Positions 19,729 through 40,469 of a stretch of 40,469 nt of DNA are shown here, one piece after another. The stretch's first letter is position 1. Each line of letters begins with the position of its first letter. The translations under genes were made by a program, and so were the position numbers. The notes under the pieces are model-generated. The model was not told the DNA's origin. It ran no database searches and worked only from the letters and a program-made list of their open reading frames with translations. Source of the stretch: Planctomycetota bacterium (GTDB lineage Bacteria; Planctomycetota; Planctomycetia; Gemmatales; Gemmataceae); NCBI GenBank assembly GCA_021413735.1, contig JAIOPV010000098.1, positions 1 to 40,469 on the forward strand. The letters are read 5' to 3'.

Positions 19729-20234
19729 AATGCGAGCCCGAGTATCTCCAGGTCTGCCTTCGAGACACCCATTCAAGATCCGAACCCGTCAGATCGCTGG
19801 CGAGGAATGTGGCCACGTGGCTTCCTCGGGCGGAATGATGGACGTTGCCACGGCGAGTCTACTGGAATCTGCGGCGTCTTTCGGAACGGGATAACGAGGG
19901 TAAGCCTGAGAATCTGTTGAGAACGCGTTGCGAATATGCGTCGTCGGGGTGGGGCACTTGATTCCGGAGTGTGTTCATAGGTTCCGGGCCGCATGGATTT
20001 CAGATCAGAATCGCAAGGTATTTAGGTGTCGTGTGATGCGGCGAACAGCGTCGTTCTGATGTAGTTTCTTCCGGACAGGTGACATGGTTCCGGGGCTGAA
20101 ATGGTTGTTTCCGGAGGTGGGGTGGGGAAGTCGCCCGGAATCAAATACCCACACACAACACGCTTGACTCTCCACAAACGTTGACTCCGCAAACCGGTGA
20201 TACACCCGCGCCGTCGGTTCTCCCATTCGCGATC

Positions 20235-20263
20235 TTGACACGAATTGTTACCAAGCGTATGCC
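20235..20263 (+). promoter_or_regulatory. Probable bamA promoter
   Basis: TTGACA (20235-20240), a 17-base spacer and a weak -10 (TATGCC, 20258-20263), 54 bases before the bamA ATG. Confidence 0.4.
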
Positions 20264-20316
20264 CGGGCCACTCACCGAGATGCCGTTGTTTGCCGACTGG
20301 GAACCGAGGAAGCCCC

Positions 20317-27536: not shown

Positions 27537-27852
27537 GTTGATGTCTCCACGAGGTGCGATCTAATCTATTTTACCGTCTTTGGAGTGCTGCCTGTCAGAG
27601 AATCGCCACGGAAAAAGAAGTGGGGCACGAGATTCGGCGGGGGACTCGCATACCCTTTAGACCGTTTTGTAGTATACAACTGGATACCATCAAACTTTAC
27701 TGTTGTGTACTATCTGGGTATCGGATTTGCCTTGTGCGTCTCAAGTTCTCGCCAATCTAACACGTTTACGCACATCTGGTGATATCTGGTTGTATGGAGA
27801 GAATGGCACAACTTGGCACACGCCGAGCCTTCCCGAATGCTCCCCGTTTCGA

Positions 27853-27864
27853 CGGTCGCGCGAC
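27853..27864. repeat. Island palindrome copy 1
   Basis: Exact 12-base core GGTCGCGCGACC, 22 bases before a second, longer copy; both precede the lipoprotein gene at 27998. Confidence 0.85.
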
Positions 27865-27882
27865 CAACTTCCGGCCCTCCTA

Positions 27883-27902
27883 ATTCTGGTCGCGCGACCA
27901 GA
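27883..27902. repeat. Island palindrome copy 2 (full 20 bp)
   Basis: TTCTGGTCGCGCGACCAGAA, a perfect 20-bp palindrome, 95 bases upstream of the lipoprotein start. Confidence 0.9.
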
Positions 27903-27997
27903 ACGACCTATCTGACGCTGAACCGGGCGTTGACCGGTGGCCGGAAATCCCGTACCCTCGGTGGCGAATCCAAGGTATCGCCCCACGGGGAACGAAG

Positions 27998-28822
27998 ATG
28001 ATTCGCGGGTATGCCTTCCTCATCCTCGCTTGCTGTCTGGCCGCGTGTGCCAAGCGGGACGCCACGAGTGCGACTGTCGTTCCTTCTGATGCGTCCGATT
28101 GGACGTATGCCGAGCTTCTTGACCACCTCAAAGCACGCGGGCTACCGCTGACGATGGCACCTTGCCGAGCGGGTCAACTGTTCCTCATCACGACTGAGGG
28201 CGATGAGCGGACTGCGACAACTGCGGCCAGTGGTATCGACGCAGGGGGCAAGTTGGCGACCGCCATAACTTGCATCAAATCAGAATCCGCTCGACAAGCG
28301 AAAGAAGCTGCCGACCAACGAGGGTCGTTCACCTGGGGACGGTTCGCATTCAATGGCGACGAAGAAGCTATCAACTTGTTCCGCCAAGCGCTCGCCACGA
28401 AGGAACCAGTTAGCGACAGCAGCCCCGATCTGAGCTACGAGGAGTTGGCCGAAAAACTGAAGTCGAAGGGTTTGCCCGCGAAGCTCCGAACGGTTCGCGA
28501 TAATCGTCTTGTCGTGTTGGCTGACTCTGATGCACTGGTTGATCGCATCGTCAGCGATTTCGACACGGGCCGAGTTCGGAAGGATCACACCTTCCGAGTC
28601 GAAGAGTTCAAGACGATCCCGGCCACGACGGTTGCAGCATTCAATTCGGGTGTGATCGTGGTGAAACACCGGTTCCACATCCAAGCGATTGAATCAGCCG
28701 GAGGGAATTCCGCTTCGTCGTTCGCCTGGGGTCGTTTCTCGTTCTTCGCGGTTCAGGTTATCGACCCGACCACATACACGACGAACGACGCATTGAAGAA
28801 AATCAAGGCATCATTGCAATAG
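27998..28822 (+). CDS. Lipoprotein with two repeated domains
   Basis: 274 residues. The signal peptide ends LAACAK (Cys17, good lipobox). The mature chain is an internal duplication: DWTYAELLDHLKARGLP... with FTWGRFAFNG in the first half, and DLSYEELAEKLKSKGLP... with FAWGRFSFF in the second. Each unit is an alpha helix followed by beta strands; I do not recognise the fold. ATG has GGAACGAAG upstream. Palindromes lie upstream, and the stop codon is one base from a hairpin built on another copy. Function unknown; envelope location likely. Confidence 0.6.
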   Translation: MIRGYAFLILACCLAACAKRDATSATVVPSDASDWTYAELLDHLKARGLPLTMAPCRAGQLFLITTEGDERTATTAASGIDAGGKLATAITCIKSESARQAKEAADQRGSFTWGRFAFNGDEEAINLFRQALATKEPVSDSSPDLSYEELAEKLKSKGLPAKLRTVRDNRLVVLADSDALVDRIVSDFDTGRVRKDHTFRVEEFKTIPATTVAAFNSGVIVVKHRFHIQAIESAGGNSASSFAWGRFSFFAVQVIDPTTYTTNDALKKIKASLQ

Positions 28823-28850
28823 CCGTGTTGGTCGCGCGACCGGCACGGCT
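28821..28850. terminator. Hairpin with palindrome core between convergent genes (palindrome copy 3)
   Basis: AGCCGTG ... CACGGCT flank the core GGTCGCGCGACC (28830-28841), with two T-G wobbles, giving a 15-bp stem with almost no loop as DNA or a shorter looped RNA hairpin. It spans the stop codon of the lipoprotein gene and ends four bases before the stop of the opposing gene, so it may end both transcripts. No T-run. Confidence 0.6.
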
Positions 28851-28854
28851 GCGT

Positions 28855-30717
28855 TTACGCAACTGGTGGCGGTGGGGTTGGCCCATCCCCTGATTGAATA
28901 TCCGATGTGGGGATCGGGCCGCCTGGAAGGTTCGCTCCGAGCGATTTGGCTACGTTGTCGTTTGGTTTCTGACCCACGGTAAGTTGCTCATTCCAAGGGC
29001 ACGGCCCCTGTCCTTGAAATTTCCAAATTATGTCGTCTGAGAAGTAACCCGCCGTGTCCTTGGATGCAGGCGCGGCAGCGTCAGTCAGGAACGGTGGAAT
29101 TGGCGCCGCGGCGCTCACAAGAATAGGATTCTTCACGCCGTAGTGATAGGTTCCCGCCGCTTTGTATGTTGGATTTTGCGCATCTGCTGCGAATTCAGAC
29201 CCACCGATTTCGAGACTCATGTGCATGTGCTGGAAGTTAGAATTTGGGCTGGCAAACTTCGGCAAGACTGGCGGGAATCCAATTCGCGAAGCCGACCAAC
29301 TCACCGTCATTGTGGCGAGGCCACCGTGACGCCGAACAAAGCATGATTCGCCACCTTTTGGCCCGACACCAGTTCCAGGCAGTTGAGCATAGCCCGCATC
29401 GTATGCATACGTCGTATCAATCAGATAGCTTTCATATGGTGCCTCATCCTTGATGGAAGGTTCACCAGTATCGGGTTTGGTGTCAGCAACCACTAGGGAC
29501 ACAACAGGACCGCCATTCATAGTCACAGCGCTGGTGGGTGCATCCTTTCCGTTCGATAGGAGATCAACGCCTTTCGGATTGCACGGGTCGCGGAACGCAG
29601 CAGTAAGCAACGCCAAAATGCGCGCTCGAACTGGTGGCGATAGACCGGGCCTTCCGGGATCACAACCTGGGGTTATCCCTCCGCTCCGCATCATGTCCAA
29701 ATCTTCCTTTGGCTTCACCTCGCGGAGCATCGCTTGCATTGATACCTCAACAACGCACTCCCAAAGTTCTTCACGAAACGTACCCCAGATCATCCGCGTG
29801 GCACCAAAGAACTTTTCTGCTTCCAACTTCGCGAACGCAATCCTCATCGCAATCACCATCAACGCATTCCGGCTTGTGCCTTTCGGACCTTCAAGCCGGA
29901 TATCAACCTGTCCTACTCGATTAACACCGGGCTTGGGACAAACGATGGTGAACCGGCCGGATGCTTTCGTCGCCCGAATCGGAGGCATCAGGTTCTTCTC
30001 TTGATCCACGAAACGGAAATCGAGTTCGCTCCCGTTCGGGTTCAAAGTGTAGGACGACTCGGTTCGAACGTAATCGTTAAGAACGTTCGGCACCGTGAGC
30101 GGTCGCAAAAAATCGGCGCTCACCTTGAACAGATCGGTCCTGACGATCAACTTCCCGGAGGTGACAAGCCGACTGTACCAATTCTCGTCAAAAATCTCAT
30201 TTTGGGACCAGCGGAGCGAAACGATCGGACTCTGACTCAAGGGGTTGTTATCACAGTCAACTAACCGAACGATACCGCCCCATTCTACAAGCCATGTGCC
30301 TCCCGCGTTCACCTGTCGCACTTCGCAGGACAGGGGTTCCGGGCCGAATGCCGCATCCGGTGGATTCGAAACTTCGAGCAACTTCGTATCGCCGACTTGG
30401 TAAATGAGCGGAAGGCGTGGGGTCATCATCATGTGCTTGACCTTCGCCATGAAAGCTGCGGAGTCGCCGCTGTCTGGCAACTCTAACGGCATGTCAGAAA
30501 GTGGTTGTTTTGGTGGCTGTTTTTGGCTTGGCGATGTGAATTCGTCAGCCGGAGGTACCACCGGCTCGGGGAGAATTGACGTGAGAATACCTCGCACCTT
30601 CACCTCGTAGCGGTTCCATTTGCGATCTGAACCGGATGGGTCAGTCTCGGTGTCGATGCGGAACAACAGTGTTCGGAGTAACGCGAGTTGAACTGTGCCG
30701 TACTTGAACTGTGACAT
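28855..30717 (-). CDS. Large hypothetical protein, last gene of the minus-strand cassette
   Basis: 620 residues, no signal peptide. The start (MSQFKYGTVQLALLRTLLFRIDTETDPSG) and a stretch of beta-type segments with GTWLVEWGGIVRLVD are not matched to a family I can name. The C terminus is Gly/Pro-rich, ending TPPPPVA. The longer frame to 30753 would read through a palindrome; ATG at 30717 is chosen, with GAAGAG nine bases upstream. It follows a probable tape-measure-like gene and may be a structural or tail-associated protein; that is a guess from gene order. Confidence 0.5.
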   Translation of the reverse strand: MSQFKYGTVQLALLRTLLFRIDTETDPSGSDRKWNRYEVKVRGILTSILPEPVVPPADEFTSPSQKQPPKQPLSDMPLELPDSGDSAAFMAKVKHMMMTPRLPLIYQVGDTKLLEVSNPPDAAFGPEPLSCEVRQVNAGGTWLVEWGGIVRLVDCDNNPLSQSPIVSLRWSQNEIFDENWYSRLVTSGKLIVRTDLFKVSADFLRPLTVPNVLNDYVRTESSYTLNPNGSELDFRFVDQEKNLMPPIRATKASGRFTIVCPKPGVNRVGQVDIRLEGPKGTSRNALMVIAMRIAFAKLEAEKFFGATRMIWGTFREELWECVVEVSMQAMLREVKPKEDLDMMRSGGITPGCDPGRPGLSPPVRARILALLTAAFRDPCNPKGVDLLSNGKDAPTSAVTMNGGPVVSLVVADTKPDTGEPSIKDEAPYESYLIDTTYAYDAGYAQLPGTGVGPKGGESCFVRRHGGLATMTVSWSASRIGFPPVLPKFASPNSNFQHMHMSLEIGGSEFAADAQNPTYKAAGTYHYGVKNPILVSAAAPIPPFLTDAAAPASKDTAGYFSDDIIWKFQGQGPCPWNEQLTVGQKPNDNVAKSLGANLPGGPIPTSDIQSGDGPTPPPPVA

Positions 30718-30739
30718 GGTGTTCTCTTCAAAGAATTCT

Positions 30740-30751
30740 GGTCGCGCGACC
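30740..30751. repeat. Island palindrome copy 4
   Basis: Core GGTCGCGCGACC within AATTCTGGTCGCGCGACCA, the same 19 bases as at 27881-27899. It lies 23 bases upstream of the ATG at 30717 and nine bases before the stop codon of the gene at 30760. Confidence 0.85.
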
Positions 30752-30759
30752 AAGGTGAA

Positions 30760-31947
30760 TCAAGGTCGTGCCCCAGGTCGCACAACTCCCCCGCCAGCAA
30801 TCCTTGCCGCTGCCGCTTTCGCTCGTTCCATTGCCTCCCGGCCAGATTCTTCCATCCGTTTAAACTCTTTTTCAATCGAAGGCATGAGGCCAGCTACACC
30901 ACCCACTTCGGGCGGCGGTGGAGCGCCGACGAGCTTGTCACGAATTTGAACCACGACCTCTGAGATTGGCTCAATCACGTTGGTTATCAGGTCGTTCAGC
31001 TTGGTCAGCAATGCGTTCTGCAAGTCTTCAATTGCCGCATTCATCGGCGCTTCTGCTTCTCGCCGTGCATTCACGCTGTCTGCGAGTTTCTTCGTGCTGC
31101 CCGCTGTCGCCTCGCCGTGTCGCATATCCCGGCGCATCTGGTTGGCGTCTGACTCTGCCAAGATCGTCGCTTGTGACCCGCTGAGTTCCGCATATTTCCG
31201 CTTCGCTTCCAAGGCTGATTCGGCAGCACTCCGAACGGCCTTTCCGAAATCGACTAACACACCTGCAACAGCGATTGCAGCGCCTGCGACGGGGATGGCT
31301 TTCCCGGCCATCCCCGCAGCGCCGCCCGCACCTTCCAGCCCGGCAGCTTTGGCGATGCCCTTGCCGCCCTCGAACCCTTCCTTAACCTCACTGGCCGCGC
31401 GACCGGCACGGCTCCCCGTAACCCGTTGACCCAGGCCGGTATCTTTGAATGCATCCCAGACCTTTCGCGCCCGGCTCGGTTCCGGCTTCTCGTCTTCGGC
31501 CTTCTCTTTCGTCTTCGGCTTCTTCTCGCTCTTGGCTTCCTTCTTGGGCTTGTCCTTGCTCGCGGGTCGGGTCAACTTCTCCCACTTGAAATCTTTGGTC
31601 GGTTCCGTGGGGCGTGTGGGTGGCGGTGGTGGGAGTGGTCGCCGTTCCGTGGGCAGCACGCCGTAGGTGGGCGCGGGTTCGCTCGGCTTGGTCGGTCTGC
31701 TCGGTCTGTCGATGGGAACGGGGTAAGTGCTTCCGCGTTCCTTTTCCAGTGGGGTGGGCGGAACGGGTTTGCTTGGTCGCGCGACCGGGCTTGCGTCGGT
31801 TGCTCGTGCTGCCGATGCTGCCATCTTTGAGACAGCGACGGGCAGGCTACCCAGGTCGTGAGCGGCTTCGGCCAGCTTGTAGATGGCGTCGGCCAACTTG
31901 CGGGCTTCCGCGTCTCGTGATTCCGGTAGTTCGATGGGGTCAGACAT
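30760..31947 (-). CDS. Coiled-coil/hydrophobic-core protein, possibly tape-measure-like
   Basis: 395 residues. Helical start (1-50), then a Pro/Lys/Glu-rich linker (50-160), a hydrophobic Gly/Ala segment (about 203-235: GLEGAGGAAGMAGKAIPVAG), then a long helix region (240-340) and a short Pro-rich tail. The combination of long helices and a central hydrophobic stretch recalls phage tail tape-measure proteins, but it is shorter than most and no family motif is seen. The ATG overlaps the stop of the upstream gene by eight bases (ATGTCTGA), so translation is coupled. A palindrome core at 31775-31786 is part of its coding sequence. Confidence 0.5.
   Translation of the reverse strand: MSDPIELPESRDAEARKLADAIYKLAEAAHDLGSLPVAVSKMAASAARATDASPVARPSKPVPPTPLEKERGSTYPVPIDRPSRPTKPSEPAPTYGVLPTERRPLPPPPPTRPTEPTKDFKWEKLTRPASKDKPKKEAKSEKKPKTKEKAEDEKPEPSRARKVWDAFKDTGLGQRVTGSRAGRAASEVKEGFEGGKGIAKAAGLEGAGGAAGMAGKAIPVAGAAIAVAGVLVDFGKAVRSAAESALEAKRKYAELSGSQATILAESDANQMRRDMRHGEATAGSTKKLADSVNARREAEAPMNAAIEDLQNALLTKLNDLITNVIEPISEVVVQIRDKLVGAPPPPEVGGVAGLMPSIEKEFKRMEESGREAMERAKAAAARIAGGGVVRPGARP
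31391..31413. repeat. Near-copy of the island palindrome with flank of copy 3
   Basis: CTGGCCGCGCGACCGGCACGG plus CT matches 28829-28850 except for the first base and one inside the core. It lies within the coding sequence of the gene at 30760. Confidence 0.6.
31775..31786. repeat. Island palindrome copy 5, inside a coding sequence
   Basis: Exact core GGTCGCGCGACC, read as part of SPVARPSKP in the Pro-rich linker of the gene at 30760. Confidence 0.85.
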
Positions 31948-32383
31948 TCGCGTTGGCCTCGCTCGTGATGTTGCCCGTGAAGGTCAGAAACGCTTTCAAC
32001 AACCCGAGCGTTTCCACGACCGTCAAGCCTCTGGGTTCGCTGTTCGTGCCGTCGAACTGTTCCACTCCGAACGCTTCACGGGTTGCGGTCAGCAGGAAGT
32101 GTTCTGCAATCCGGGCATCGGCTTCATCGCCCGTCATCAGGTCCGTCATCAACTCGACAACATCGGGCCGGATGCGGAACAGCGTGTCGCGGGTCAAGTG
32201 CGGATCGACGGTTCGCCAATGTTGCCCATCCCAGAACGGGAACAGGCAACGCGGAGGCGGTGGCGGGTCGGCTCGATACCCGAGAAGGCGAGAGATGAAT
32301 CGGAACACGCTGCCGACTCCGCGAGGTGATGAGGACACAACGAAGTGAGTGAGCAGGACATCGTGCCCCCGCTCACTTCTCAC
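31940..32383 (-). CDS. Hypothetical protein, third from the end of the minus-strand cassette
   Basis: 147 residues. The N terminus (RFISRLLGYRADPPPPP) is followed by a compact helical C-terminal part (LFRIRPDVVELMTDLMTGDEADARIAEHFL, then GLTVVETLGLLKAFLTF). No family recognised; size and position between a small beta-type protein and a tape-measure-like gene would suit a tail-assembly chaperone, but this is only a guess. The start is GTG, two bases after the stop of the gene upstream, so translation is probably coupled; an internal start cannot be excluded. Its stop overlaps the next start by eight bases. Confidence 0.5.
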   Translation of the reverse strand: MRSERGHDVLLTHFVVSSSPRGVGSVFRFISRLLGYRADPPPPPRCLFPFWDGQHWRTVDPHLTRDTLFRIRPDVVELMTDLMTGDEADARIAEHFLLTATREAFGVEQFDGTNSEPRGLTVVETLGLLKAFLTFTGNITSEANANV

Positions 32384-32385
32384 GC

Positions 32386-32682
32386 TCAGACGATGGCAGG
32401 AGCAACCGTATCAACCGCACGGGACATGATGCACGCCGTCATCGTTGTTCCCGTGGAGTCCGTTGGATCAACCTTGTAGTCTTGGTCGCCGATGATGAAC
32501 CCTTCGGATTTGAACTTCCCGTGGGTGAAATCCCTTGCGGCTCGCACTGCCGCTTCCGGGTTTTGGTCGTTGGGAACGGTGAACTTCATGTCGAGTTGAG
32601 CCACGGGCGGCTTTCCGGAGTTCCGCACCACCGTGAACTTGGCTTCGTAGTCGGTGCCCTCTGGCATCTTCAAGTCGATCAT
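32386..32682 (-). CDS. Small hypothetical protein, first gene of the minus-strand cassette
   Basis: 98 residues with alternating hydrophobic/polar strands (YEAKFTVVRNSGKPPVAQLDMKFTV; EGFIIGDQDYKVDPTDST), a likely all-beta fold. It could be a tail-tube-like or regulatory protein, but no motif decides this. ATG at 32682 has AGGAAACAG upstream; the frame opens to 32703. A full 20-bp palindrome lies 57 bases upstream. It begins a four-gene minus-strand run. Confidence 0.5.
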   Translation of the reverse strand: MIDLKMPEGTDYEAKFTVVRNSGKPPVAQLDMKFTVPNDQNPEAAVRAARDFTHGKFKSEGFIIGDQDYKVDPTDSTGTTMTACIMSRAVDTVAPAIV

Positions 32683-32739
32683 GCTCTGTTTCCTGTTGAG
32701 CATCCGGCATCGTGGCCGAACGCGGTTTGAGATCGGCCG

Positions 32740-32759
32740 TTCTGGTCGCGCGACCAGAA
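32740..32759. repeat. Island palindrome copy 6 (full 20 bp)
   Basis: TTCTGGTCGCGCGACCAGAA again, perfect, placed between the divergent starts of the cassette (32682, minus) and the DUF1580 gene (32884, plus). The left flank GGCCG is shared with copy 7. Confidence 0.9.
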
Positions 32760-32860
32760 TAGATTCACTATGTGAGCAGTCTCGTTGCTCGGTTCCGCTG
32801 CTCAGCGGATGCCCGATTGTACCCGGCGCGTCCCAGCGTCATCCCTCGCGCGTGTCGTCC

Positions 32861-32866
32861 TACAAT
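32861..32866 (+). promoter_or_regulatory. Promoter-like -10 before the DUF1580 gene
   Basis: TACAAT at 32861, 18 bases before the ATG, inside TACAATCGG. The same nine bases occur at 34360 before the second small DNA-binding gene. No good -35 is visible. Confidence 0.35.
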
Positions 32867-32883
32867 CGGGCAAGGAGCCAACT

Positions 32884-33225
32884 ATGGAACTTGACCTTAT
32901 CAACGACCGACTGATCGCCCTTTCGGAAGTGCCTGAGATGATCCCGCCGGGCCGTGGTGGGAAGCGAACGCATCTCAAAACCGTCGAGCGTTGGATTGCT
33001 AACGGCGTGCGGTTGGGGAACGGGGAGCGTGTGCGGTTGGAAGTTGTTCAACTCGCGGGCCGTCGCCTGACGACAGCGAAGCGACTGGCCGCGTTCATTG
33101 AGAAGCAAACCGAAGTAGCGAAGACGAAACAGCCCGCTAAAGCTGCGGCGGTCCGGTATCGGTTCAAGCCGCGAAGTGCGAAACAGTTTCTTCCGCAGGG
33201 TACCTACCCGCCAACTCCTTGCTGA
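32884..33225 (+). CDS. DUF1580 protein, excisionase/HTH-like
   Basis: 113 residues. The N-terminal 60 (LIALSEVPEMIPPGRGGKRTHLKTVERWIANGVRLGNGERVRLE and the RRLTTAKRLAAFIE end) match the planctomycete DUF1580 family, whose pattern is that of a MerR/excisionase-like winged helix: first helix pair, PPGRGG loop, then RWI recognition helix. A basic C-terminal tail follows (RYRFKPRSAKQF). DNA binding is likely; the target is unknown. ATG has AAGGAG upstream, and a hairpin follows. A paralogous small protein is encoded at 34412. Confidence 0.75.
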   Translation: MELDLINDRLIALSEVPEMIPPGRGGKRTHLKTVERWIANGVRLGNGERVRLEVVQLAGRRLTTAKRLAAFIEKQTEVAKTKQPAKAAAVRYRFKPRSAKQFLPQGTYPPTPC

Positions 33226-33247
33226 CTGATGCGTGTTTGATCCGGCC

Positions 33248-33269
33248 GGGCTTGTCACGGGACAAGCCC
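33248..33269 (+). terminator. Hairpin after the DUF1580 gene
   Basis: GGGCTTGTC, loop ACGG, GACAAGCCC: a perfect 9-bp stem 22 bases after the stop codon. No T-run follows. Confidence 0.5.
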
Positions 33270-33433
33270 AACTGCCAGACCGAACAGCCCGAGCCTCAGC
33301 GTTCAATCGTGCATTTCGGCAGGGCTTTCTTGAGTTCTTTCTCTCCTGCTTCCAGGTCGTCTTTACTTCTAACCCAACCATGACCCGAACTCAATGAGCA
33401 GAAGCAACCACGCCCACCTTCGCGGGGTGGGCA

Positions 33434-33445
33434 GGTCGCGCGACT
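33434..33445. repeat. Near-copy of the island palindrome
   Basis: GGTCGCGCGACT, one base from the core. Confidence 0.6.
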
Positions 33446-33606
33446 AACAGAACTTGAACCTGACAATTGCGGTTCAACAGGTCGCGAATGGGCAGGCGAG
33501 ACGGCGTGAGTTCTTCCGTGGGTCGGCCCGTTGCGTTCAGCCATCTGCCCCCACTAACCTTCCTCCGGATGCTTGATCCCGTGTGCGATCCCTGCGTGGC
33601 CGTTCT

Positions 33607-33618
33607 GGTCGCGCGACC
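33607..33618. repeat. Island palindrome copy 7
   Basis: Exact core preceded by GGCCGTTCT, the same flank as copy 6, so the two share about 21 bases. It lies 140 bases upstream of the membrane-protein ATG. Confidence 0.85.
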
Positions 33619-33758
33619 GAGATTCAGCGTTCGACCTCTGCACCTTGGGAAAGGCTCAAGGGTGGTCACAGCGGATGTGAACATTGCTTTCGCAGAAGTA
33701 TTGGATAGTTCATGCTGTCAGCGTGCCTTCGATATCGTTGCCATACTCTCGTGCCCCC

Positions 33759-34184
33759 ATGATCCGTTTACTGCGCTGGTTCAATCCCAACACACCTCTT
33801 CGCGGTGTCGTGTTCGGCGCGTTGTTTGGGTTCCTCTCGACTCTGGTGATTCTCCGCGTTCGTTCGTACTTTCACCTCCCGTATGCCTTTCGCGACATCT
33901 CGCTCACAATCGTCTTTGCCGTCACCTACGCAATCGCTTGGTCGATCATCTGGGGTGTGTCGGGATTCACCTCCCGAAGCCCACGCCCGCATCGGGGAAC
34001 TCTCGTGACCGGTTGCGCCATCGTCATCGGAATCACTGTCTCGCTTTGGTGCCTTCCAAGTCGTGACCCGCAGTTTTGGACCGCCGTTACCGTTTTCACG
34101 TTTGCGGCCCTCGTCCCTTGCCACCTGTGCTACTTCCTCTGTCAAAAACTGAGTCGGTCGGCGCGGCCACAGAACACTCTTTAA
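33759..34184 (+). CDS. Small membrane protein
   Basis: 141 residues with four hydrophobic segments (about 15-32, 47-66, 78-97, 103-125) and a basic N terminus (MIRLLRWFNP). No family recognised. ATG at 33759 lacks a clear ribosome binding site; a TTG at 33684 would add 25 residues. It lies between hairpin-rich DNA and the second small HTH gene; its role in the island is unknown. Confidence 0.45.
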   Translation: MIRLLRWFNPNTPLRGVVFGALFGFLSTLVILRVRSYFHLPYAFRDISLTIVFAVTYAIAWSIIWGVSGFTSRSPRPHRGTLVTGCAIVIGITVSLWCLPSRDPQFWTAVTVFTFAALVPCHLCYFLCQKLSRSARPQNTL

Positions 34185-34359
34185 ACCGCGTCAGGACACC
34201 GGCATTGGTGATTCCAGGCCATCGCAAGGTGGTGTCTATTCGTGATTTTCCTCAGTTCTTGGCCACTTTTTTCGCCCATCTCATCGCATTCAATCGCATC
34301 TCGTGGCAACTAACAAATCGGGACCAATTCACCTTCCGAGGTGGCTCCGCTCGCCTCGG

Positions 34360-34365
34360 TACAAT
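34360..34365 (+). promoter_or_regulatory. Promoter-like -10 before the second small HTH gene
   Basis: TACAAT in TACAATCGG, 46 bases before the ATG; the same nonamer precedes the DUF1580 gene. A CCGAGG/CCTCGG inverted repeat (34336-34341, 34354-34359) overlaps the region just upstream. Confidence 0.35.
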
Positions 34366-34411
34366 CGGATAGCGTCATATACATCCGTCCAAATCTCTTC
34401 GAGTGCGACGA

Positions 34412-34681
34412 ATGAAAACGACTCACACCGAATCAACGGTCACTCTTGGCGCTGCTGCTCTCGTCGTCCACGAGATGACAGGCATGAAGCCCACGAGGGC
34501 AACGCTTTGGAACTGGGCGCGTCACGGTCTTCGCACGAACGGAACGTGGCTCAAACTTGAAACGACCCAAGCCGGCGGATTCCTTTTGACGACTCGCGCA
34601 GACCTCGCACGGTTCCTCAAAGCAACGGGGAAGCTGAAGGCGACTCAGACAGAGCAGAAGTGCGAAGAGATCGCGGTCTGA
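34412..34681 (+). CDS. Small HTH protein, DUF1580/excisionase-like
   Basis: 89 residues: VTLGAAALVVHEMTGMKPTRATLWNWARHGL, a beta hairpin (NGTWLKLETTQAGGFLLT) and RADLARFLKAT. The order first helices, WNW recognition helix, wing, closing helix is that of the DUF1580 product at 32884, though sequence identity is low. DNA binding, perhaps as an excisionase or regulator of the island, is inferred. ATG has GAG upstream only. A hairpin follows the stop. Confidence 0.6.
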   Translation: MKTTHTESTVTLGAAALVVHEMTGMKPTRATLWNWARHGLRTNGTWLKLETTQAGGFLLTTRADLARFLKATGKLKATQTEQKCEEIAV

Positions 34682-34688
34682 AAAACAA

Positions 34689-34732
34689 ACCAGCCACGGC
34701 GTGAGGGTGATGACCTCGTTGCCGTGGCTGGT
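34689..34732 (+). terminator. Hairpin after the small HTH gene
   Basis: ACCAGCCACGGC and GCCGTGGCTGGT form a perfect 12-bp stem around a 20-base loop that itself holds GAGG/CCTC. It begins eight bases after the stop codon. No T-run. Confidence 0.55.
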
Positions 34733-34812
34733 AGCGACTAGCAGGAACAGGAACTTAGTCGAGTCACCCTTTTGCTTGCCGGCGGGGAGTGACGCAACAA
34801 GGTACTCACCCG

Positions 34813-35733
34813 ATGGTATCTACGGCGAAGGTAGCGCGCAATGTCAAACAACAAGATTTTGGTAACTCTTGTGATGATTGGTCGCCTCTTGACGCATCCC
34901 GTCTGAACCAGCGTTGGGACACCACAGAAGGAATGGTACTGGCTGTTGCCGAGTCCCTTCGCTCGTTCGTCTCCGCTGCCATTCCGGGCAGTGGTCGTGA
35001 ATCCGTAATTCGTCTCGTAATTCAACGGTGCGGTTTCGACCCAGACAAGTTCCTAAGCGTCTGCAAGATCGCGGGGGAAGTGGCGTCGGGTCGGTGGTTA
35101 ATGATCGATTCCGACCAACCCTATCCAGATTTCGGGGTGAATGCACCCGATCCACGTTCCGAGGCGTGGGTACCCGACGGCTTAAGTGCTAGCTCGTCTT
35201 TTCCCGATTACAACGGGCCGGATGAACCGGTTGAGGAACAAACCGCGTCCGACGTTCCGCAGGCAACCGACCGTGGCCATACCACCCGTGGTGTCCAAAC
35301 CGCCGAGGCAGAGCAGACCGCGAAAACTTCAACTCAGTCTTCTTGTCTTTCAGAAAGTGGAAGTTCTGGGAAATGTGCCTTCGTCAAGTGCGTGAATCTT
35401 GCCCTGGCGGGTAAGGTGCTCCCTCGTGCTGATGGCATCGTCGCAGACACATCAAAAGTAACCAAGAACCTCCGGCTCCTTGCGTCCGTGGCCTGGCACC
35501 TCGCGGGCCGGCGATCCGGGAACGGCTTCACGCTTGGAGTCGAGCAGACAGCGAAGTTGCTCGACGTTTCGGCGCGGAGCGCTTCGAGCTACATCCACCG
35601 GCTCGAAGGTCTTGGCGTCGTCGTGCGCTTGAGGACCGGCAACAACTTAGAACACAAGGTTTCTCAGTTCCGTTTCGTCGGGTCGGGTTCCTCCCGAAGA
35701 GTACCGCCTTTGCTGGTCGCGCGACCAGATTGA
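34813..35733 (+). CDS. Winged-helix protein with disordered middle
   Basis: 306 residues. N-terminal helical region (about 25-90: MVLAVAESLRSFVSAA; GFDPDKFLSVCKIAGEV), an acidic/polar Ser/Thr-rich linker (about 115-185), and a C-terminal winged helix (about 215-290: LLASVAWHLAGRR, VEQTAKLLDVSARSASSYIHRLEGLGVV). Such a layout is common in replication or partition proteins of mobile elements, but no family is certain. ATG at 34813 has AAGG upstream; GTG at 34789 is an alternative. The last residues (LLVARPD) and the stop codon lie in and just after a palindrome copy. Confidence 0.5.
   Translation: MVSTAKVARNVKQQDFGNSCDDWSPLDASRLNQRWDTTEGMVLAVAESLRSFVSAAIPGSGRESVIRLVIQRCGFDPDKFLSVCKIAGEVASGRWLMIDSDQPYPDFGVNAPDPRSEAWVPDGLSASSSFPDYNGPDEPVEEQTASDVPQATDRGHTTRGVQTAEAEQTAKTSTQSSCLSESGSSGKCAFVKCVNLALAGKVLPRADGIVADTSKVTKNLRLLASVAWHLAGRRSGNGFTLGVEQTAKLLDVSARSASSYIHRLEGLGVVVRLRTGNNLEHKVSQFRFVGSGSSRRVPPLLVARPD
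35713..35728. repeat. Island palindrome copy 8, overlapping a gene end
   Basis: CTGGTCGCGCGACCAG, a 16-bp perfect palindrome that encodes the last residues of the winged-helix protein and lies 50 bases before the ParB-like ATG. Confidence 0.88.
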
Positions 35734-35778
35734 ACGCGATTGAATCACCCACCTGTTCCACTACACGAGGAAAGCAAC

Positions 35779-37077
35779 ATGACGATGAACCAGACGGAAG
35801 AAATGATGTTCTCGGTCAAGGATATCGACGCAACCCCGGCAGCTTCGGTGCGGGATTCACTGCGAACGGACTCGGTTGAGACCTATTGCGAAAAGCATAA
35901 GAGGGGGACCAAATTCCCACCTCTTGACGTGTTCGCCTGCAGGTCATCGCAAGGCACGTTGGTTGCGTTCCTCGGTGACGGCAACCACCGGTTAGAAGCC
36001 TGGAAAATGGCGGGTCTGGATACCGTCCGCTGCCTTGTCCGGTGGTTCGACACCGTGAACGAGGCGGAAGTGGCCGCGTACCGTCACGCGGTCATGGCGA
36101 ACGATACCAACGCAATCCATCGTTCCAAGGAAGACAAGCGGGCTGCGATCCGGGCCGCTCTCCTGCGGCCGGAGAACGCTGAGTTGAGCGACAACAAGAT
36201 TGGCGAGATGTGCGGCGACCTTCACCACAACACCGTCTCGAACGTCCGGCATGAACTCACCGGATTGGGTCTTCTCTCGGGCCGAGCAGCGTCAACAGCA
36301 CCCGAGCGTGGATACAAGAAGGGAGCGAAAACGAGTGGCGGTTACCATCGCGGGGAGGCCGGCAGAGGTATATCCAACACTCCGGTAAGTGTTAAAGTTG
36401 GGCAAGTGCGCACCCCAGGCGATGAAAAACCTGGGCAAGTGCGCACCCTCTCAGACCAATCAGGCACCAACGAACCAACCGAGTCGGGTTTGACCGAACC
36501 GAATGCTGGCGATGTCGAAGTTCCTCGCTCCGAGAGTGGTAACGTTACCAGCGCGGAGCCGCCTGAACCTAAACCCTCCAACCGGGAGATCGTGCGGGAT
36601 GCGGCGGGGCGTCCGATTCCTGCGGCGCTCGCCTCGCAGTTCGTGGCAGCTCGTGATGCCAATCGCGATGCTCAGAAGTTGGTCAAGGAACTTCGCAAGT
36701 TCATCGGGTCGATGGCTCACCAAGAGTGGGGGAAGGGCATCCCGGCCATCCTCTCGACAGTGGAAGCCGAAACGAAGACGGTTGGGGAGAACGTGGCTTC
36801 GTCCATCCCCGCTTATCTCTGCCCGCACACGGACGATGCGGGTGTTCACGTACAGCCGGGCAACTGCAAAGTGTGCCACGGTCGTGGTTGGCTCAGTCGC
36901 CACGTTTACCGCCAACTCCCCGACCCGGTGAAGCAAATCTGCAAGGATCGTGCTGAGAAGGCAGGGGAAGAAACCGAGCCGTGTGACGATCCTGAATCCG
37001 AGGTCACCGTTCACGAGAACGACGACAAACGAGGCGGCGGTTGGAACGGTCACGTTTCGTCGCGGAGGGCTTCGTAA
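35779..37077 (+). CDS. ParB-like protein
   Basis: 432 residues. N-terminal ParB/Srx-type domain (about 10-110) with FPPLDVFACR and the GDGNHR motif (66-71), followed by a ParB-type helix-turn-helix (about 135-162: LSDNKIGEMCGDLHHNTVSNVRHEL). The middle is a polar linker with a direct repeat of GQVRT (208-212 and 220-224), then a helical part (285-312) and a Cys/His cluster (CPHT at 348, CKVCHGRGW at 363), a possible zinc site. ParB family proteins bind palindromic sites; whether this one is a partition, regulatory or nuclease type is unknown, and no ParA is seen. ATG at 35779 has AGGAAAG upstream. The stop overlaps the next ATG. Confidence 0.75.
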   Translation: MTMNQTEEMMFSVKDIDATPAASVRDSLRTDSVETYCEKHKRGTKFPPLDVFACRSSQGTLVAFLGDGNHRLEAWKMAGLDTVRCLVRWFDTVNEAEVAAYRHAVMANDTNAIHRSKEDKRAAIRAALLRPENAELSDNKIGEMCGDLHHNTVSNVRHELTGLGLLSGRAASTAPERGYKKGAKTSGGYHRGEAGRGISNTPVSVKVGQVRTPGDEKPGQVRTLSDQSGTNEPTESGLTEPNAGDVEVPRSESGNVTSAEPPEPKPSNREIVRDAAGRPIPAALASQFVAARDANRDAQKLVKELRKFIGSMAHQEWGKGIPAILSTVEAETKTVGENVASSIPAYLCPHTDDAGVHVQPGNCKVCHGRGWLSRHVYRQLPDPVKQICKDRAEKAGEETEPCDDPESEVTVHENDDKRGGGWNGHVSSRRAS

Positions 37078-37427
37078 TGACCAGTTACCTCCTGCTCGAA
37101 GAGTTGAAGGCGAGACGGGTGCGGATCGGCGTCAACGCGGGCCGTCTCACCGTGGTCGGAACCATTCCGCGCGAACTGCGGGACCGGTTCATGATTCTCG
37201 GAACGGGAATCCGGGCCATGCTCACAGGCAAAATCTGGTGGGGTTGCGGCTCCGAGGTGAAATACGCGGGTGCGATCAGCCTCCCCACGGCGGGGGTGAT
37301 TCCCGCCTGGGTCACCCTGCTTTCGGTCGAAGGTGACGAGCGATGGGACCGCATCCACCCGTCGGCGTGGATCGACTTCCCGGACCTGTTTCAGCAGCGG
37401 GAAGCGGACTCCTCCAACGCGGCGTAA
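37077..37427 (+). CDS. TubC-N-like docking-domain protein
   Basis: 116 residues. The first 50 (LLEELKARRVRIGVNAGRLTVVGTIPRELRDRF) follow the pattern of the TubC N-terminal docking domain, a helix-beta-hairpin-helix unit found in NRPS modules and often on small proteins of mobile elements. The remainder has no known motif (GKIWWGCGSEVKYAGAISLPTAG). The ATG shares one base with the stop of the ParB-like gene (TAATG), so the two products are made together and may interact. Function unknown. Confidence 0.6.
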   Translation: MTSYLLLEELKARRVRIGVNAGRLTVVGTIPRELRDRFMILGTGIRAMLTGKIWWGCGSEVKYAGAISLPTAGVIPAWVTLLSVEGDERWDRIHPSAWIDFPDLFQQREADSSNAA

Positions 37428-37494
37428 CCTTTCTGACGCGATCAAGTAGCCCCGCCATAATTAATGGTCAACTCGCGTTGATGTGTATCAATTA

Positions 37495-39090
37495 TCAATG
37501 CAAGCCGGGGAAGTAGCTCAGCATTGCGATCCGAATGCCTCTCCCGATTTCGCTTGAAAGGAGTCGGAGTACCAGTTTTGGAAACTCGCCATCCGCAAAA
37601 CCAAGATTCCGAGACACTCGTGATGGTAAATTCTTTCGATTGTAGTGACAGATGAGGCGTGGGTAGTCCCTTGTTTCGATGATTTCCTTGAAAAGTCGTT
37701 CACTGTCTGCATAAATCTCAGCGGTGTCGATTGATCCAAGGTATTGTTTAACCGCATCTTGAAATGACCCCTGCCCATCCGGCCGTTTCTGTAATCCTGG
37801 GAAACTGTTTAGCCGCTGCTGTACTTGGAAGACGGCTCGGTCTGTGATCTGTCTAGTAAGTTCCTTTTCCAGTTCTGAGAATAGGAACTTCTTCACGTTG
37901 CTAATATCCTCGTCTGCATTTCGCTCCAGGTGTGTCGAAACCAAACGGATCACTTCTTCGATTAGAAAAAGGTTCTCGACCTCTGCGACGACTGGGGCGA
38001 ACACTCGCTTCGACTTGTACGACGCAATCTCGGCTTCGTTTCTGTGATCCCGATCTATGACACCGATCGCGTCAACGTGGTTAAACAGAGAAAGAGAGTT
38101 GACCGCAACGGTTGAGTCGATGACTGCGGTGCAGGAACTCCGCGGAATGACGAGATGGTTGGGAAAGAGGTGTCGGTACAGCGCAGCATCGAGGCTACTA
38201 GTGTCGCCCTCAACAAACAAAATGGGTCGGCGACTACCGAGAATCTGCAAGACGAGACTTTCTGGGAAGTCCTCGTTTGGTGGAATCTCGTTCCAATCCC
38301 ATTTGGCGTTCTCTGGATACGATTTAACCCAAATTTTTCTTGCAAGATGCCGAGACGCTGCAAAACCGAGATCGTGGGTGATGTAAACAAATAGACAATC
38401 GGGGCGAACCTTCTCTATCTCGTCCCATAACCTTGCCTGCACCGCTTGATGAAGGTGAAGTTCTGGCTCATCAATTACGACGATGTAGCCTGATGGTGCC
38501 GCGAGGCCTTGCGCGATCAAATACAGCGTGACACGTTCTCCATCACTTAATTGCTTTGCTGCGAATGGTTCTCCCTTGTAACCGCTTGCCTCAACCTTGT
38601 TATCTTTGAATGTTAGTTGTCTGTGGGGCATTACCAGATTCCAAATCCGGTGCAGCTCCTCAAGGCGTGACTCGACTACCTGCAACTGATTGCCACCTTC
38701 CACTTTGAACTTCTCTCGAAACTCATTTGCGACCTTGAAATGTTCGGCAAAAATCCACGCCAATAAGACATCATAATCATCTAATTGATGGCCGAATGGA
38801 TCGTGATTCCAGCGTGGGGATGTATCTCGACGATTCGAGTTCTTGTCCGTCCCCGTAATGAGCATCCGGTCCGCCTGCTCCCATGGGCGAGGTTGAACGT
38901 AGTCAGAGATTTTGAGTGCTCGCTGTGCCGAAATTCGGTGAACAAGCCTCCCGCCTTGAGAATGCTCGATCCAAATCCCAAGCCGGGTTTTCCCAGAACC
39001 GTTGGCACCAACAATAACCATGGAGCTAACGTTATTCAATTCAACATAATTACCGTTGTCGAGAGGTTTCGGTAGTCGGATTGTGCTCAT
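37495..39090 (-). CDS. Fused ABC-type ATPase / DUF4435 (TOPRIM-like) protein, PARIS-like
   Basis: 531 residues. ATPase part (1-285): Walker A GANGSGKT (28-35), signature LSDGE (181-185), Walker B YIVVIDEPE (202-210), His239 in YITHD. C-terminal part (287-531) matches DUF4435: ILFVEGD (290-296) with candidate catalytic Glu294, IDRDHR (345-350) and AEVENLF (369-375). AriA (ATPase) and AriB (DUF4435 nuclease) form the PARIS anti-phage system, and fused PARIS proteins are known, so an abortive-infection role is likely. The ATPase half is shorter than AriA. ATG has GAAGAG upstream and overlaps the stop of a 38-codon ORF. The surrounding DNA is visibly AT-richer, as expected for transfer. OLD-family nuclease is the main alternative. 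Confidence 0.75.
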   Translation of the reverse strand: MSTIRLPKPLDNGNYVELNNVSSMVIVGANGSGKTRLGIWIEHSQGGRLVHRISAQRALKISDYVQPRPWEQADRMLITGTDKNSNRRDTSPRWNHDPFGHQLDDYDVLLAWIFAEHFKVANEFREKFKVEGGNQLQVVESRLEELHRIWNLVMPHRQLTFKDNKVEASGYKGEPFAAKQLSDGERVTLYLIAQGLAAPSGYIVVIDEPELHLHQAVQARLWDEIEKVRPDCLFVYITHDLGFAASRHLARKIWVKSYPENAKWDWNEIPPNEDFPESLVLQILGSRRPILFVEGDTSSLDAALYRHLFPNHLVIPRSSCTAVIDSTVAVNSLSLFNHVDAIGVIDRDHRNEAEIASYKSKRVFAPVVAEVENLFLIEEVIRLVSTHLERNADEDISNVKKFLFSELEKELTRQITDRAVFQVQQRLNSFPGLQKRPDGQGSFQDAVKQYLGSIDTAEIYADSERLFKEIIETRDYPRLICHYNRKNLPSRVSRNLGFADGEFPKLVLRLLSSEIGRGIRIAMLSYFPGLH

Positions 39091-39203
39091 TCGTACTCTT
39101 CTATGGGAATCAACCGAGTCGCAAAGGCAACAATTCTCTTGAGGGAATCGGCATTAAGATCATCGAATTTTCTCACTACTTTCGCCACTCGAATTAGCTT
39201 CAC
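39087..39203 (-). CDS. Small ORF translationally coupled to the PARIS-like gene
   Basis: 38 codons, GTG start, product beginning MKLIRVAKVVRKFDDLN and ending RLIPIEEYE. Its TGA overlaps the ATG of the ATPase gene (ATGA). It lies wholly in the gap between the sigma-factor and ATPase genes. The pattern of two short amphipathic helices (LIRVAKVVRKF; SLKRIVAFATRL) resembles small helical proteins found beside defence genes, but I know no family match. No ATG, GTG or TTG lies further upstream in frame before a stop. Only composition and overlap support it. Confidence 0.45.
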   Translation of the reverse strand: MKLIRVAKVVRKFDDLNADSLKRIVAFATRLIPIEEYE

Positions 39204-39249
39204 TTTGTACTCAGCAACTCGCGGAAACCAGGCTAGAACGCGGCATGAA

Positions 39250-39873
39250 TCAAGCTGCCGTCAGGCTCAACTGGCGTGGCTTCCTCGCTGGTCGCCAGGG
39301 TGCTAACCAGGGCGTTTCGTCCGCGCGTCCAAGGAATGCAAGCGAGTCTTGCAGGATCTTGTTGACTTGGTTCGGCGTGAGCACGAGCCGTTCCGCCACG
39401 TCGCCAGTTCCCAAAGTCCCACCACCCTCCAACCCAAAGCTGAGAGTGAGGACAGCGCGGCTCGTCCCATCCAGTTCATTCAAACCGGGAACTTCAACTG
39501 ATTCGCCGTCGCGAGCGAAGGCCATCTCCAAGGGCGTTTCTTCCGCTGCCCGCTCATCACAGTCAAGGCATTCACGCACCTGCTTCACGGTCGATCGCAG
39601 GTACTTCCGGAGTGCGTTTCGCACGCAAACGAATGCCAGGGTCTTGTACTTCGCATTCCGGCCCGGCTTCCACGTCTGGGCAGCTCGATAGAGAGCGATT
39701 TGCCCCGCTTGAATCATGTCGTCAAAGTCGATGCGGGTTGGCGGCTTCATCTTCTTCGCCTGACCTGCGACCAGTCGCTTGTACCGCATAACCAACACGT
39801 TCCCGGCTTCGCGGTCGCCGGCCTGGATGCGGATGCACAGTTCCTCGTCGCTCTCAACTCTGGTGATGAGCAT
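39250..39873 (-). CDS. Sigma-70-family RNA polymerase sigma factor
   Basis: 207 residues with region 2 (about 8-95: AGDREAGNVLVMRYKRLV, IDFDDMIQAGQIALYRAAQTWKPGRNAKYKTLAFVCVRNALRKYLR) and region 4 (about 132-183: DGTSRAVLTLSFGLEGGGTLGTGDVAERLVLTPNQVNKIL), joined by a short acidic linker. Regions 1 and 3 are missing, so it is like an ECF factor in size but closer to the RpoD type in sequence. ATG at 39873 has no strong ribosome binding site; the longer frame to 40056 reads through a palindrome copy. No anti-sigma factor is adjacent. It may serve the island's own promoters. Confidence 0.8.
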   Translation of the reverse strand: MLITRVESDEELCIRIQAGDREAGNVLVMRYKRLVAGQAKKMKPPTRIDFDDMIQAGQIALYRAAQTWKPGRNAKYKTLAFVCVRNALRKYLRSTVKQVRECLDCDERAAEETPLEMAFARDGESVEVPGLNELDGTSRAVLTLSFGLEGGGTLGTGDVAERLVLTPNQVNKILQDSLAFLGRADETPWLAPWRPARKPRQLSLTAA

Positions 39874-40136
39874 GGGGTATCCGACGTGAGCAGGGATTCT
39901 CCATCCTACGCGGCTCGTGTTGGTCGCGCGACCGGAGTTCGCGTGCAACTCCAGCAGAGGGGTAGATGTTGGACTGTTATGCAATAGTGAGGGCATTATG
40001 AGGATAAGAAAATTCCTTGTTGGCAACCCTTCGTGTGGGTAGGGTTGACGTTCCAAGTTGATTTCTGTTCTCTGAGATGTTCATTTGGGAAAGCTCGGCG
40101 TGGGTAGATCCTCACCCCAACGAAAAGGAATCTCCG
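39874..40136. other. Right edge of the island
   Basis: 260 bases between the divergent sigma-factor and secreted-protein genes, holding palindrome copy 9. No integration site or direct repeat matching the left edge was found. Confidence 0.4.
39922..39933. repeat. Island palindrome copy 9
   Basis: Exact core within GTGTTGGTCGCGCGACCGG, the same 19 bases as at 28825-28843. It lies 49 bases upstream of the sigma-factor ATG. Confidence 0.88.
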
Positions 40137-40469
40137 ATGTGTGCACCGAGGTTGTTTGCGACTCTCCTGGCCGGAGGAATGTGCGGGCTAACCGTCTGGG
40201 CTGCCGATGAGCCTGCAAAGCAGGCACCGAAGGTGCCTGATGGGTGGGTCGATTACATGCCGGCGGACAAGATCTTCGGCGTCTTTCTCCCGAAGGGTGG
40301 CAAGAGGACTGAACGCGACGTCACTGTGCCTGTCAAGGGTGAAATGGTCAGCGTGAATATCATCGAGTTGGAATCGGAGGGGAAAGGCAAATTCGTCGCG
40401 CGAACGCTGCTCATCCAGTTCAAAATGGGGCCGGTTGCCATTCCCAAACCGATGATCGTCAAGGGGAAG
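40137..40469 (+). CDS. Secreted protein, cut by the window end
   Basis: At least 111 residues, open to the last base. A signal peptide (LFATLLAGGMCGLTVWAADEP) is followed by GWVDYMPADKIFGVFLPKGGKRTERDV, a pattern seen in several planctomycete exported proteins of unknown function that contain a short beta domain. ATG has AAAAGGAA upstream. It is the first gene outside the island on the right. Confidence 0.75.
   Translation, partial: MCAPRLFATLLAGGMCGLTVWAADEPAKQAPKVPDGWVDYMPADKIFGVFLPKGGKRTERDVTVPVKGEMVSVNIIELESEGKGKFVARTLLIQFKMGPVAIPKPMIVKGK

Follow-up and report, generated by a model that had tools for sequence, protein, structure and literature searches.

Candidate loading sites of an orphan ParB-family protein: a dispersed palindrome in integrated elements of Gemmataceae

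Noc of Bacillus, a host-encoded, chromosomal ParB relative that acts in nucleoid occlusion, has many dispersed palindromic sites, and one parS lies within spo0J of Bacillus subtilis. Here we describe a dispersed palindrome in a 40,469-bp stretch of planctomycetal DNA (contig JAIOPV010000098.1 of assembly GCA_021413735.1, family Gemmataceae; hereafter the window), where it is found in a putative integrated element that also encodes a ParB-family protein. Plasmid RK2 encodes KorB, a clamp of the ParB family whose silencing acts at a distance from its OB sites (PMC11790492, in part). Cluster O mycobacteriophages carry dispersed 17-bp palindromes of unknown function (34 in Corndog), located in gaps and in genes; a ParB-like protein is encoded by these phages, a parAB system is not, and a role of the palindromes in transcription seemed unlikely to the authors (PMC4351075, in part). 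SopB of the N15 prophage has four inverted-repeat sites, IR1-4, and together with SopA partitions the linear plasmid prophage (PMC7205306, in part). According to a 2025 survey, proteins with the ParB-CTPase fold that lack a ParA-binding motif are frequent on plasmids and prophages, and the roles of such orphan ParB proteins on mobile elements are largely open; 'palindrom' occurs 0 times in its main text and no DNA sites for orphan ParB proteins are given in the parts examined (PMC12704722, in part). In the literature searched, dispersed palindromes of phage orphan ParB proteins are the subject of no paper but the Cluster O one, which draws no such link.

The reading that we favour, and regard as probable from the sequence comparisons below, is that the palindromes of the window are specific loading sites for an orphan ParB-family protein that the element itself encodes, without a ParA, at positions 35779-37077. 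We favour it because the sites are confined between att sites, have symmetric, element-specific arms and occur without a ParA match, and because some viral ParB loci also have repeated palindromes, often with a copy in the parB-like frame and with a word that matches the recognition helix. A ParB dimer would read the two half-sites by its helix-turn-helix (HTH), as ParB does with parS or KorB with OB, and would then spread from the site as a clamp. Sites across the integrated element would let the protein coat, silence or coordinate its genes in a KorB-like manner, rather than segregate a plasmid. We infer binding itself, nucleotide-driven sliding and the silencing or coating outcome alike, and silencing or coating as the purpose is less certain than the docking of the protein at these sites.

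Compared with KorB and OB, the likeness lies in a ParB-family protein of a mobile element; KorB's 16-bp sites lie at various promoter distances and silencing is long-range (PMC11790492, in part). Here, too, the ParB-family protein and several dispersed palindromes share one element. KorB has KorA as a partner, and the ParA of IncP-1 plasmids is IncC; here there is no ParA match, the host is a planctomycete and up to 43 exact sites occur in one element. The Cluster O phages share the combination of palindromes dispersed over gaps and genes with a ParB-like protein (gp94 of Firecracker), but their palindromes have a 3-bp spacer and another sequence. N15 resembles our case in having a phage ParB-family protein with several inverted repeats, and differs in that the element here is integrated and has no ParA match (PF13614). 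The survey of orphan prophage ParB proteins gives no sites (PMC12704722, in part), whereas candidate sites are proposed here. What is new is thus a set of candidate DNA words for one orphan ParB group and their match to the recognition helix.

Distribution of the palindrome in the genome

The 12-bp word GGTCGCGCGACC occurs nine times in the window and 0 times in its first 27,853 bases; one-mismatch copies are present at 31393 and 33434. Nine exact copies, two near-copies and none in the first 27.8 kb had also been reported in a first-pass annotation, and all of this was borne out by our recount. Seven of its coordinates were exact, while copies placed at 27853 and 27887 really begin at 27854 and 27888; of two 20-bp perfect palindromes (TTCTGGTCGCGCGACCAGAA), it located that at 32740 correctly and that at 27884 one base too early (27883). 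The longer flanks that it saw in common between copies are real, with identical runs of 19 bp (27888/30740), 20 bp (28830/39922) and 21 bp (32744/33607). The sites and boundaries of the element, none of which has a strand, are as follows in window coordinates (C2 is a second contig of the same genome):

27614..27655: attL, 42 bp, identical to C2:10559-10600
27854..27865: palindrome copy 1, GGTCGCGCGACC, 5' of the gene at 27998
27884..27903: palindrome copy 2, 20-bp TTCTGGTCGCGCGACCAGAA (12-mer at 27888)
28830..28841: palindrome copy 3, in the gap between the convergent genes that end at 28822 and 28855
30740..30751: palindrome copy 4, in a 42-bp gap separating two minus-strand genes
31393..31404: one-mismatch copy GGCCGCGCGACC, within the 395-aa gene
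31775..31786: palindrome copy 5, within the 395-aa gene
32740..32759: palindrome copy 6, 20-bp TTCTGGTCGCGCGACCAGAA (12-mer at 32744), upstream of the minus-strand gene starting at 32682
33434..33445: one-mismatch copy GGTCGCGCGACT
33607..33618: palindrome copy 7
35715..35726: palindrome copy 8, at the 3' end of the upstream gene, 52 bp short of the ParB-like start chosen at 35779
39922..39933: palindrome copy 9, in the 5' part of the sigma-like open reading frame (ORF)
40393..40469: 77-bp contig end, identical to C2:1-77; the element goes on to the integrase gene C2:9249-10538 and attR C2:10559-10600

Genes were called with a simple ORF picker. Because homologues of the sigma-like ORF are shorter, copy 9 probably lies upstream of its true start.

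Not one exact copy of the word turned up in 60 second-order Markov copies of the window. Across the 9.8-Mb genome (293 contigs), 14 exact copies were found, nine of them in the window, four on contig C2 and one on contig C63; the last sits inside a 2,496-aa ORF, and we rejected it as a real site and took it as chance. A reversed control word was found 0 times in the same 9.8 Mb. The element therefore holds 13 of the 14 copies, at a density of ~556 per Mb versus 0.10 per Mb elsewhere in the genome. The two outcomes that the annotation had named as fatal to its claim, an equal density in the rest of the chromosome and an occurrence explained by composition, were thus not observed. Among relatives, at least one copy of the 12-mer is present in 59 of 102 genomes of the order, mostly as 1 to 5 copies, and single copies there are chance.

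The window lies on contig C116, whose last 77 bp (40393-40469) equal the first 77 bp of C2, as expected for contigs left unjoined in an assembly. A 42-bp direct repeat links window positions 27614-27655 to C2:10559-10600, directly behind the integrase gene. Given the overlap and the repeat beside the integrase, the 'island' of the annotation would be a single att-bounded element; judged from these features rather than from reads, C116 and C2 appear to form one element of 23,379 bp (~23.4 kb). Confinement to the island holds for the 12-mer; the shorter 10-bp core GTCGCGCGAC is not confined (35 copies in the genome, 16 of them in the element), and the element itself runs past the window.

The ParB-family protein and the form of its candidate sites

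The 432-aa protein encoded at 35779-37077 has a ParB N-terminal fold followed by an HTH, as members of the ParB/Spo0J family do, and we assign it to that family. A profile of eight relatives, compared with PDB sequences, matched Spo0J (1vz0, 1.2e-9) and Noc (7nfu, 1.8e-8). A structural model of the window protein, with a mean pLDDT of 64 overall and a confident N-terminal part, retrieved ParB (6sdk, 9.9e-7), KorB (8qa9, 3.6e-4) and also Noc in Foldseek; the Noc structures matched in our comparisons were 7nfu and 7ol9. Pfam gave no match, and the PHROG match to a ParB-like family was 2.6e-4. As a feature of sequence only, a DGxHR-like stretch is present in the N-domain of the ParB-like proteins. 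For ParA, a search of six genomes with PF13614 (E 1e-3; other ParA models were not searched) listed no match inside the elements, so a ParA encoded with the ParB, as in ParABS systems, was not found by this family.

We then compared the element with those of related genomes (G000 is the window's own genome, other G labels are relatives). Of 95 Gemmataceae genomes, 15 have a homologue of its 620-aa protein, a marker of the element family. The largest case is G002, of the same genus: 43 of its 44 copies lie in one 50-kb stretch that is bounded by a 48-bp repeat of a tRNA-Arg gene and encodes homologues of integrase, large and small terminase, portal, scaffold, helicase, primase and clamp. This stretch looks like a whole prophage, and IMG/VR has a 47.6-kb record with the same row of sites. 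Related elements of ~25 kb, or pieces of such, were found in G007, G012 (two), G013 and G005. Scans of the proteins of the window, C2 and G012c against families (in some scans the first 25 families listed) found no capsid, portal or terminase; therefore, the smaller elements may be satellites or reduced prophages. The genes that the window element has in common with its relatives include those of the 620-aa protein, the 395-aa protein, the sigma factor and the ParB-like protein:

27998..28822, plus strand: 274-aa protein, common to related elements
28855..30717, minus strand: 620-aa protein, element-family marker
30760..31947, minus strand: 395-aa protein, common to related elements
31940..32308, minus strand: 122-aa protein, common to related elements
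32386..32682, minus strand: 98-aa protein
34412..34681, plus strand: small protein with a weak DUF1580 match, below the Pfam cut-off
34813..35733, plus strand: winged-HTH-like protein, of a family not found in the G002 prophage
35779..37077, plus strand: ParB-family protein, 432 aa, with ParB N-domain, HTH and a Cys/His-containing C-terminal part; proposed palindrome binder
37077..37427, plus strand: 116-aa protein, whose homologues adjoin the ParB-like gene in G005, G012a and G012c
39250..39996, minus strand: sigma-70 family factor (region 2, E 3.5e-11)

For the 620-aa protein, no Pfam, PHROG or PDB relative was found at the cut-offs used, and its model is poor (pLDDT 43). The common C-terminal part of the ParB-like protein aligns in all seven elements that bear the core (G000, G002, G005, G007, G012a, G012c and G013), and the same ParB N-domain is present in six of them. 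On the G014 contigs there are distant ParB-type proteins only. The copy nearest to the ParB gene lies within the gene in G002, at 63 bp in G000, at 36 bp in G013 and at 334-1674 bp in the other six. Between G012a and G012c (L048, L050/L051), a 4.6-kb block is 96% identical, and the N-terminal halves of the ParB-like proteins differ strongly.

Outside the constant core GTCGCGCGAC, the next three bases are largely symmetric and differ by element: CTG/TTG in G000, GTG in G002, G007 and G012, GTG/CTG in G005, CTT plus CCG in G013 and CCG in G014. When left and right arms were re-paired, the observed match was reached at positions 1, 2 and 4 by 7, 8 and 5 of 1000 permutations, respectively; the coupling was less clear at positions 3 and 5 (58 and 66 of 1000) and absent at the remaining five of the ten positions tested, further out. 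In sites that could be oriented by a gene, G-U pairs (30) were not commoner than A-C pairs (50), and an RNA stem is therefore not favoured. The sites look like double-stranded protein sites.

With regard to placement, sites lie within predicted genes as well as in gaps of all three kinds (co-directional, convergent and divergent). In G002, 24 of 54 copies (at most one mismatch) lie in gaps, which make up 6.9% of positions, and the other 30 lie inside predicted genes. Many of the gap copies in G002 are situated 2-6 nt after a stop codon and 15-35 nt ahead of the next start.

Palindromes at viral parB-like loci

Viral contigs were searched with the ParB alignment alone. This search yielded 49 loci, one of which was the G002 prophage, and the other 48 were used. 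A repeated palindrome with log10 E < -6 was present at 10 of the 48 ParB loci versus 1 of 98 control loci, which were shorter on average (10 vs 15 kb) after 22 of 120 had been dropped as being under 5 kb. Two of the ten are of special form: in L150 the copies make up a tandem array, and in L179 they cluster at one end. The repeated words include TGGCAACGTTGCCA (L180, 12 copies in 19 kb), TGGGGAATTCCCCA (L178, L181) and TGGAAGCGCTTCCA (L156), besides others, and these three have the frame TGG-N4-N4-CCA in common with TGGTCGCGCGACCA. The L156 word also repeats the outer AAGTGG seen in many Gemmata sites. Ends of the form TGG..CCA, as in TGGTCGCGCGACCA, were carried by 47 of the 109 14-bp palindromes of the 48 loci, spread over 16 loci.

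In the reverse direction, we compared stretches that carry TGGCAACGTTGCCA with stretches that carry the same-composition palindrome ACCGTTGCAACGGT. The ParB type was encoded by 9 of 120 of the former versus 0 of 120 of the latter, the nine proteins being 24-43% identical to the L180 protein in their aligned parts. Two or more copies of the word were present in 12 of 120 versus 0 of 120 stretches; five of these 12 are DNA relatives of the ParB-encoding L174-L180 phages and seven are not. A copy of the repeated palindrome lay within the parB-like frame, taken from stop to stop, at 10 of 15 loci with such a palindrome (3.75 expected by length). In the named phage record MW202545, the 50 kb read contain eight TACTAGTC-N-GACTAGTA, two of them inside the annotated parB-like gene. 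The named-phage collection held no match to the window ParB-like protein and three records that match the L156 protein, two of which were fetched.

The recognition helix was analysed at 60 viral loci, nine of them picked for carrying TGGCAAC; 16 loci without a regular-expression match were dropped, as were repeated helices. A helix of the form SHT[FY] went with TGGCAAC in 6 of 7 distinct helices versus 1 of 25 other helices (p 5e-5). Among the 16 dropped loci, L174-L177 and L180 have SHTYI together with TGGCAAC, and L191, L211 and L224 have TGGCAAC with no helix shown. A second pairing, noticed after the fact, is that of an SQ[PS]FVA helix with TACTA-N7-TAGTA in L152, L169 and MW202545 (L423); this word was absent from 1.07 Mb of control sequence. 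Related loci entered the counts separately, namely those of the groups L174-L177 with L180, L178/L181/L182 and L166/L167. Duplicates also occur, in that L134 is the G002 prophage, L205 is on the same contig as L136 and L251 is part of the L180 contig.

Among the Cluster O phages, the 41 kb of Firecracker that were read contain 27 exact copies of its palindrome. The ParB-like gene gp94 holds none and is flanked by two, and its product matches the viral ParB profile weakly (1.2e-7). The Cluster O repeats may be another case of sites used by an orphan ParB. More tentatively, and with somewhat more doubt than confidence, we suggest that many phages and phage-like elements may rely on an orphan ParB as a clamp whose palindromic code is private to them, often with one copy within the parB gene and others scattered across the genome; the protein would thereby mark and coat their own genome only. 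As the recognition helix changes, the code would drift too, so that every lineage has a self-address of its own. The candidate sites, and the matching words in other phages, make the roles of orphan ParB proteins open to binding and silencing tests, and they may bear on the unexplained Cluster O palindromes. A suggested way to more such systems is to look for a repeated palindrome with a copy in a parB-like gene.

Two further observations concern the viral loci. L150, a contig that also has a ParB-like gene, carries a tandem array with a 100-bp period at 19971-20310; the palindromes in it are GTGTAAG-N2-CTTACAC and AGTGTAA-N4-TTACACT. L233, L255, L256, L286, L292 and others carry three to six copies of TGGCAACGTTGCCA, with no ParB-like gene in the part fetched, and some of them are unrelated to the L180 phage at the DNA level.

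Weighing of the alternatives

Several observations weigh against loading of the element's ParB-family protein at the palindromes. At 36 of the 48 viral ParB loci, many of which are partial contigs, no palindrome was found at log10 E < -3, and the viral counts are not independent because the loci are related. All nine ParB-encoding TGGCAAC stretches are single-copy, and in the fetched parts of the 12 multi-copy stretches there is no ParB-like gene. No strong repeated palindrome (best log10 E -4.9) was present in four plasmid regions with homologues, from 14 matched records. Within the family of elements, the ParB-like protein of G012a, which does have the palindromes, departs from the others in its N-domain and HTH; the usual protein is encoded in the same genome by G012c. 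For G091a and G091b, a ParB of weak similarity (4e-12) was found and no strong palindrome. The ParB genes of G007 and G012c lie 1.5 kb from the nearest copy. The recognition helices of G000, G002, G005, G007/G012c and G013 differ, while the 10-bp core is constant. Finally, structural-looking genes are equally conserved among the elements, and a sigma factor is also present in all seven, of one family in six and of ECF type in G012c; to our knowledge, a palindrome is no promoter form of a sigma factor.

The annotation had offered four roles for the palindrome, and its island-wide operators or partition-type sites are supported, here narrowed to sites of an orphan ParB-family protein. The sites could instead be dispersed operators or stoperator-like sites of another element regulator (CI-like, AlpA/DUF1580-like, winged-HTH or sigma-linked), with ParB as a bystander. 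This fits the preference for gaps in G002 and the position of several sites upstream of genes, and the elements do encode further HTH proteins, among them one of CI type in G002, and sigma factors. Three HTH families were tested by profile and rejected as the binder, none of them being found in every one of the seven elements: G002 gave no match to the winged-HTH and DUF1580 families, and G000 and G013 none to a 70-aa HTH family. Known stoperators, such as those of Cluster A, are moreover asymmetric and oriented with transcription (PMC4351075, PMC9283540, both in part), whereas the sites here are perfect palindromes. The viral search by ParB alone still turned up repeated palindromes, and we consider another regulator unlikely.

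Action at the RNA level, as intercistronic hairpins for translation or mRNA decay, would suit a palindrome that can fold and that in G002 often stands between a stop and the next start. The start-associated sequences of Cluster K mycobacteriophages, a model for such hairpins, are asymmetric and lie immediately 5' of start codons; our word is symmetric, and the copies inside predicted genes and in convergent or divergent gaps do not fit such a role. Together with the pair counts, which led us to reject this reading, they make it very unlikely. The same placement and the same counts leave the terminators proposed in the annotation without support, and no T-run was found behind the copies inspected. 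A role in recombination, be it as joints or as sites of site-specific exchange by which related elements would shuffle gene modules, finds some support in the homology-block ends, 4 of 84 of which fall at a palindrome (0.65 expected), and the Cluster O authors infer recombination between their repeats (PMC4351075, in part). However, conserved sites beside diverged gaps give the same picture, and the element-specific symmetric arms are left unexplained; we rejected the signal as weak and confounded, and hold this role, also one of those in the annotation, to be highly improbable. Least likely of all is that a mobile repeat of palindromic form (REP- or MITE-like) has multiplied within the elements. 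Pairs of copies do have longer flanks in common, but almost no copies lie outside the att-bounded elements of G000 and G002, the arms change symmetrically between elements and other phages use other words.

In elements of other relatives the picture was mixed. No strong repeated palindrome was found in G091a, G091b, G009, G024 or G069a, and the best of G071 reached a log10 E of just -3.7. G069, of another genus and without the core, has ACCGCANACGTNTGCGGT seven times in its genome, each at most ~26 kb from a match to the 620-aa protein, and TGCGG-N5-CCGCA eleven times within one 40-kb region. G106 has nine 12-mers in its genome, and among the 10-mer places listed, a pair near a 620-aa match occurs on C214 alone. 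Several G004 contigs (L126, L127, L131 and L133) begin identically, with a palindrome ~74 bases in, as if within a repeated element. The palindromes of G045, whose elements are without the core, are repeat-like; there, positions 5964, 10353, 18731 and 39206 of the joined region (L105/L106) each have a copy of a GC-rich stretch that contains several inverted repeats.

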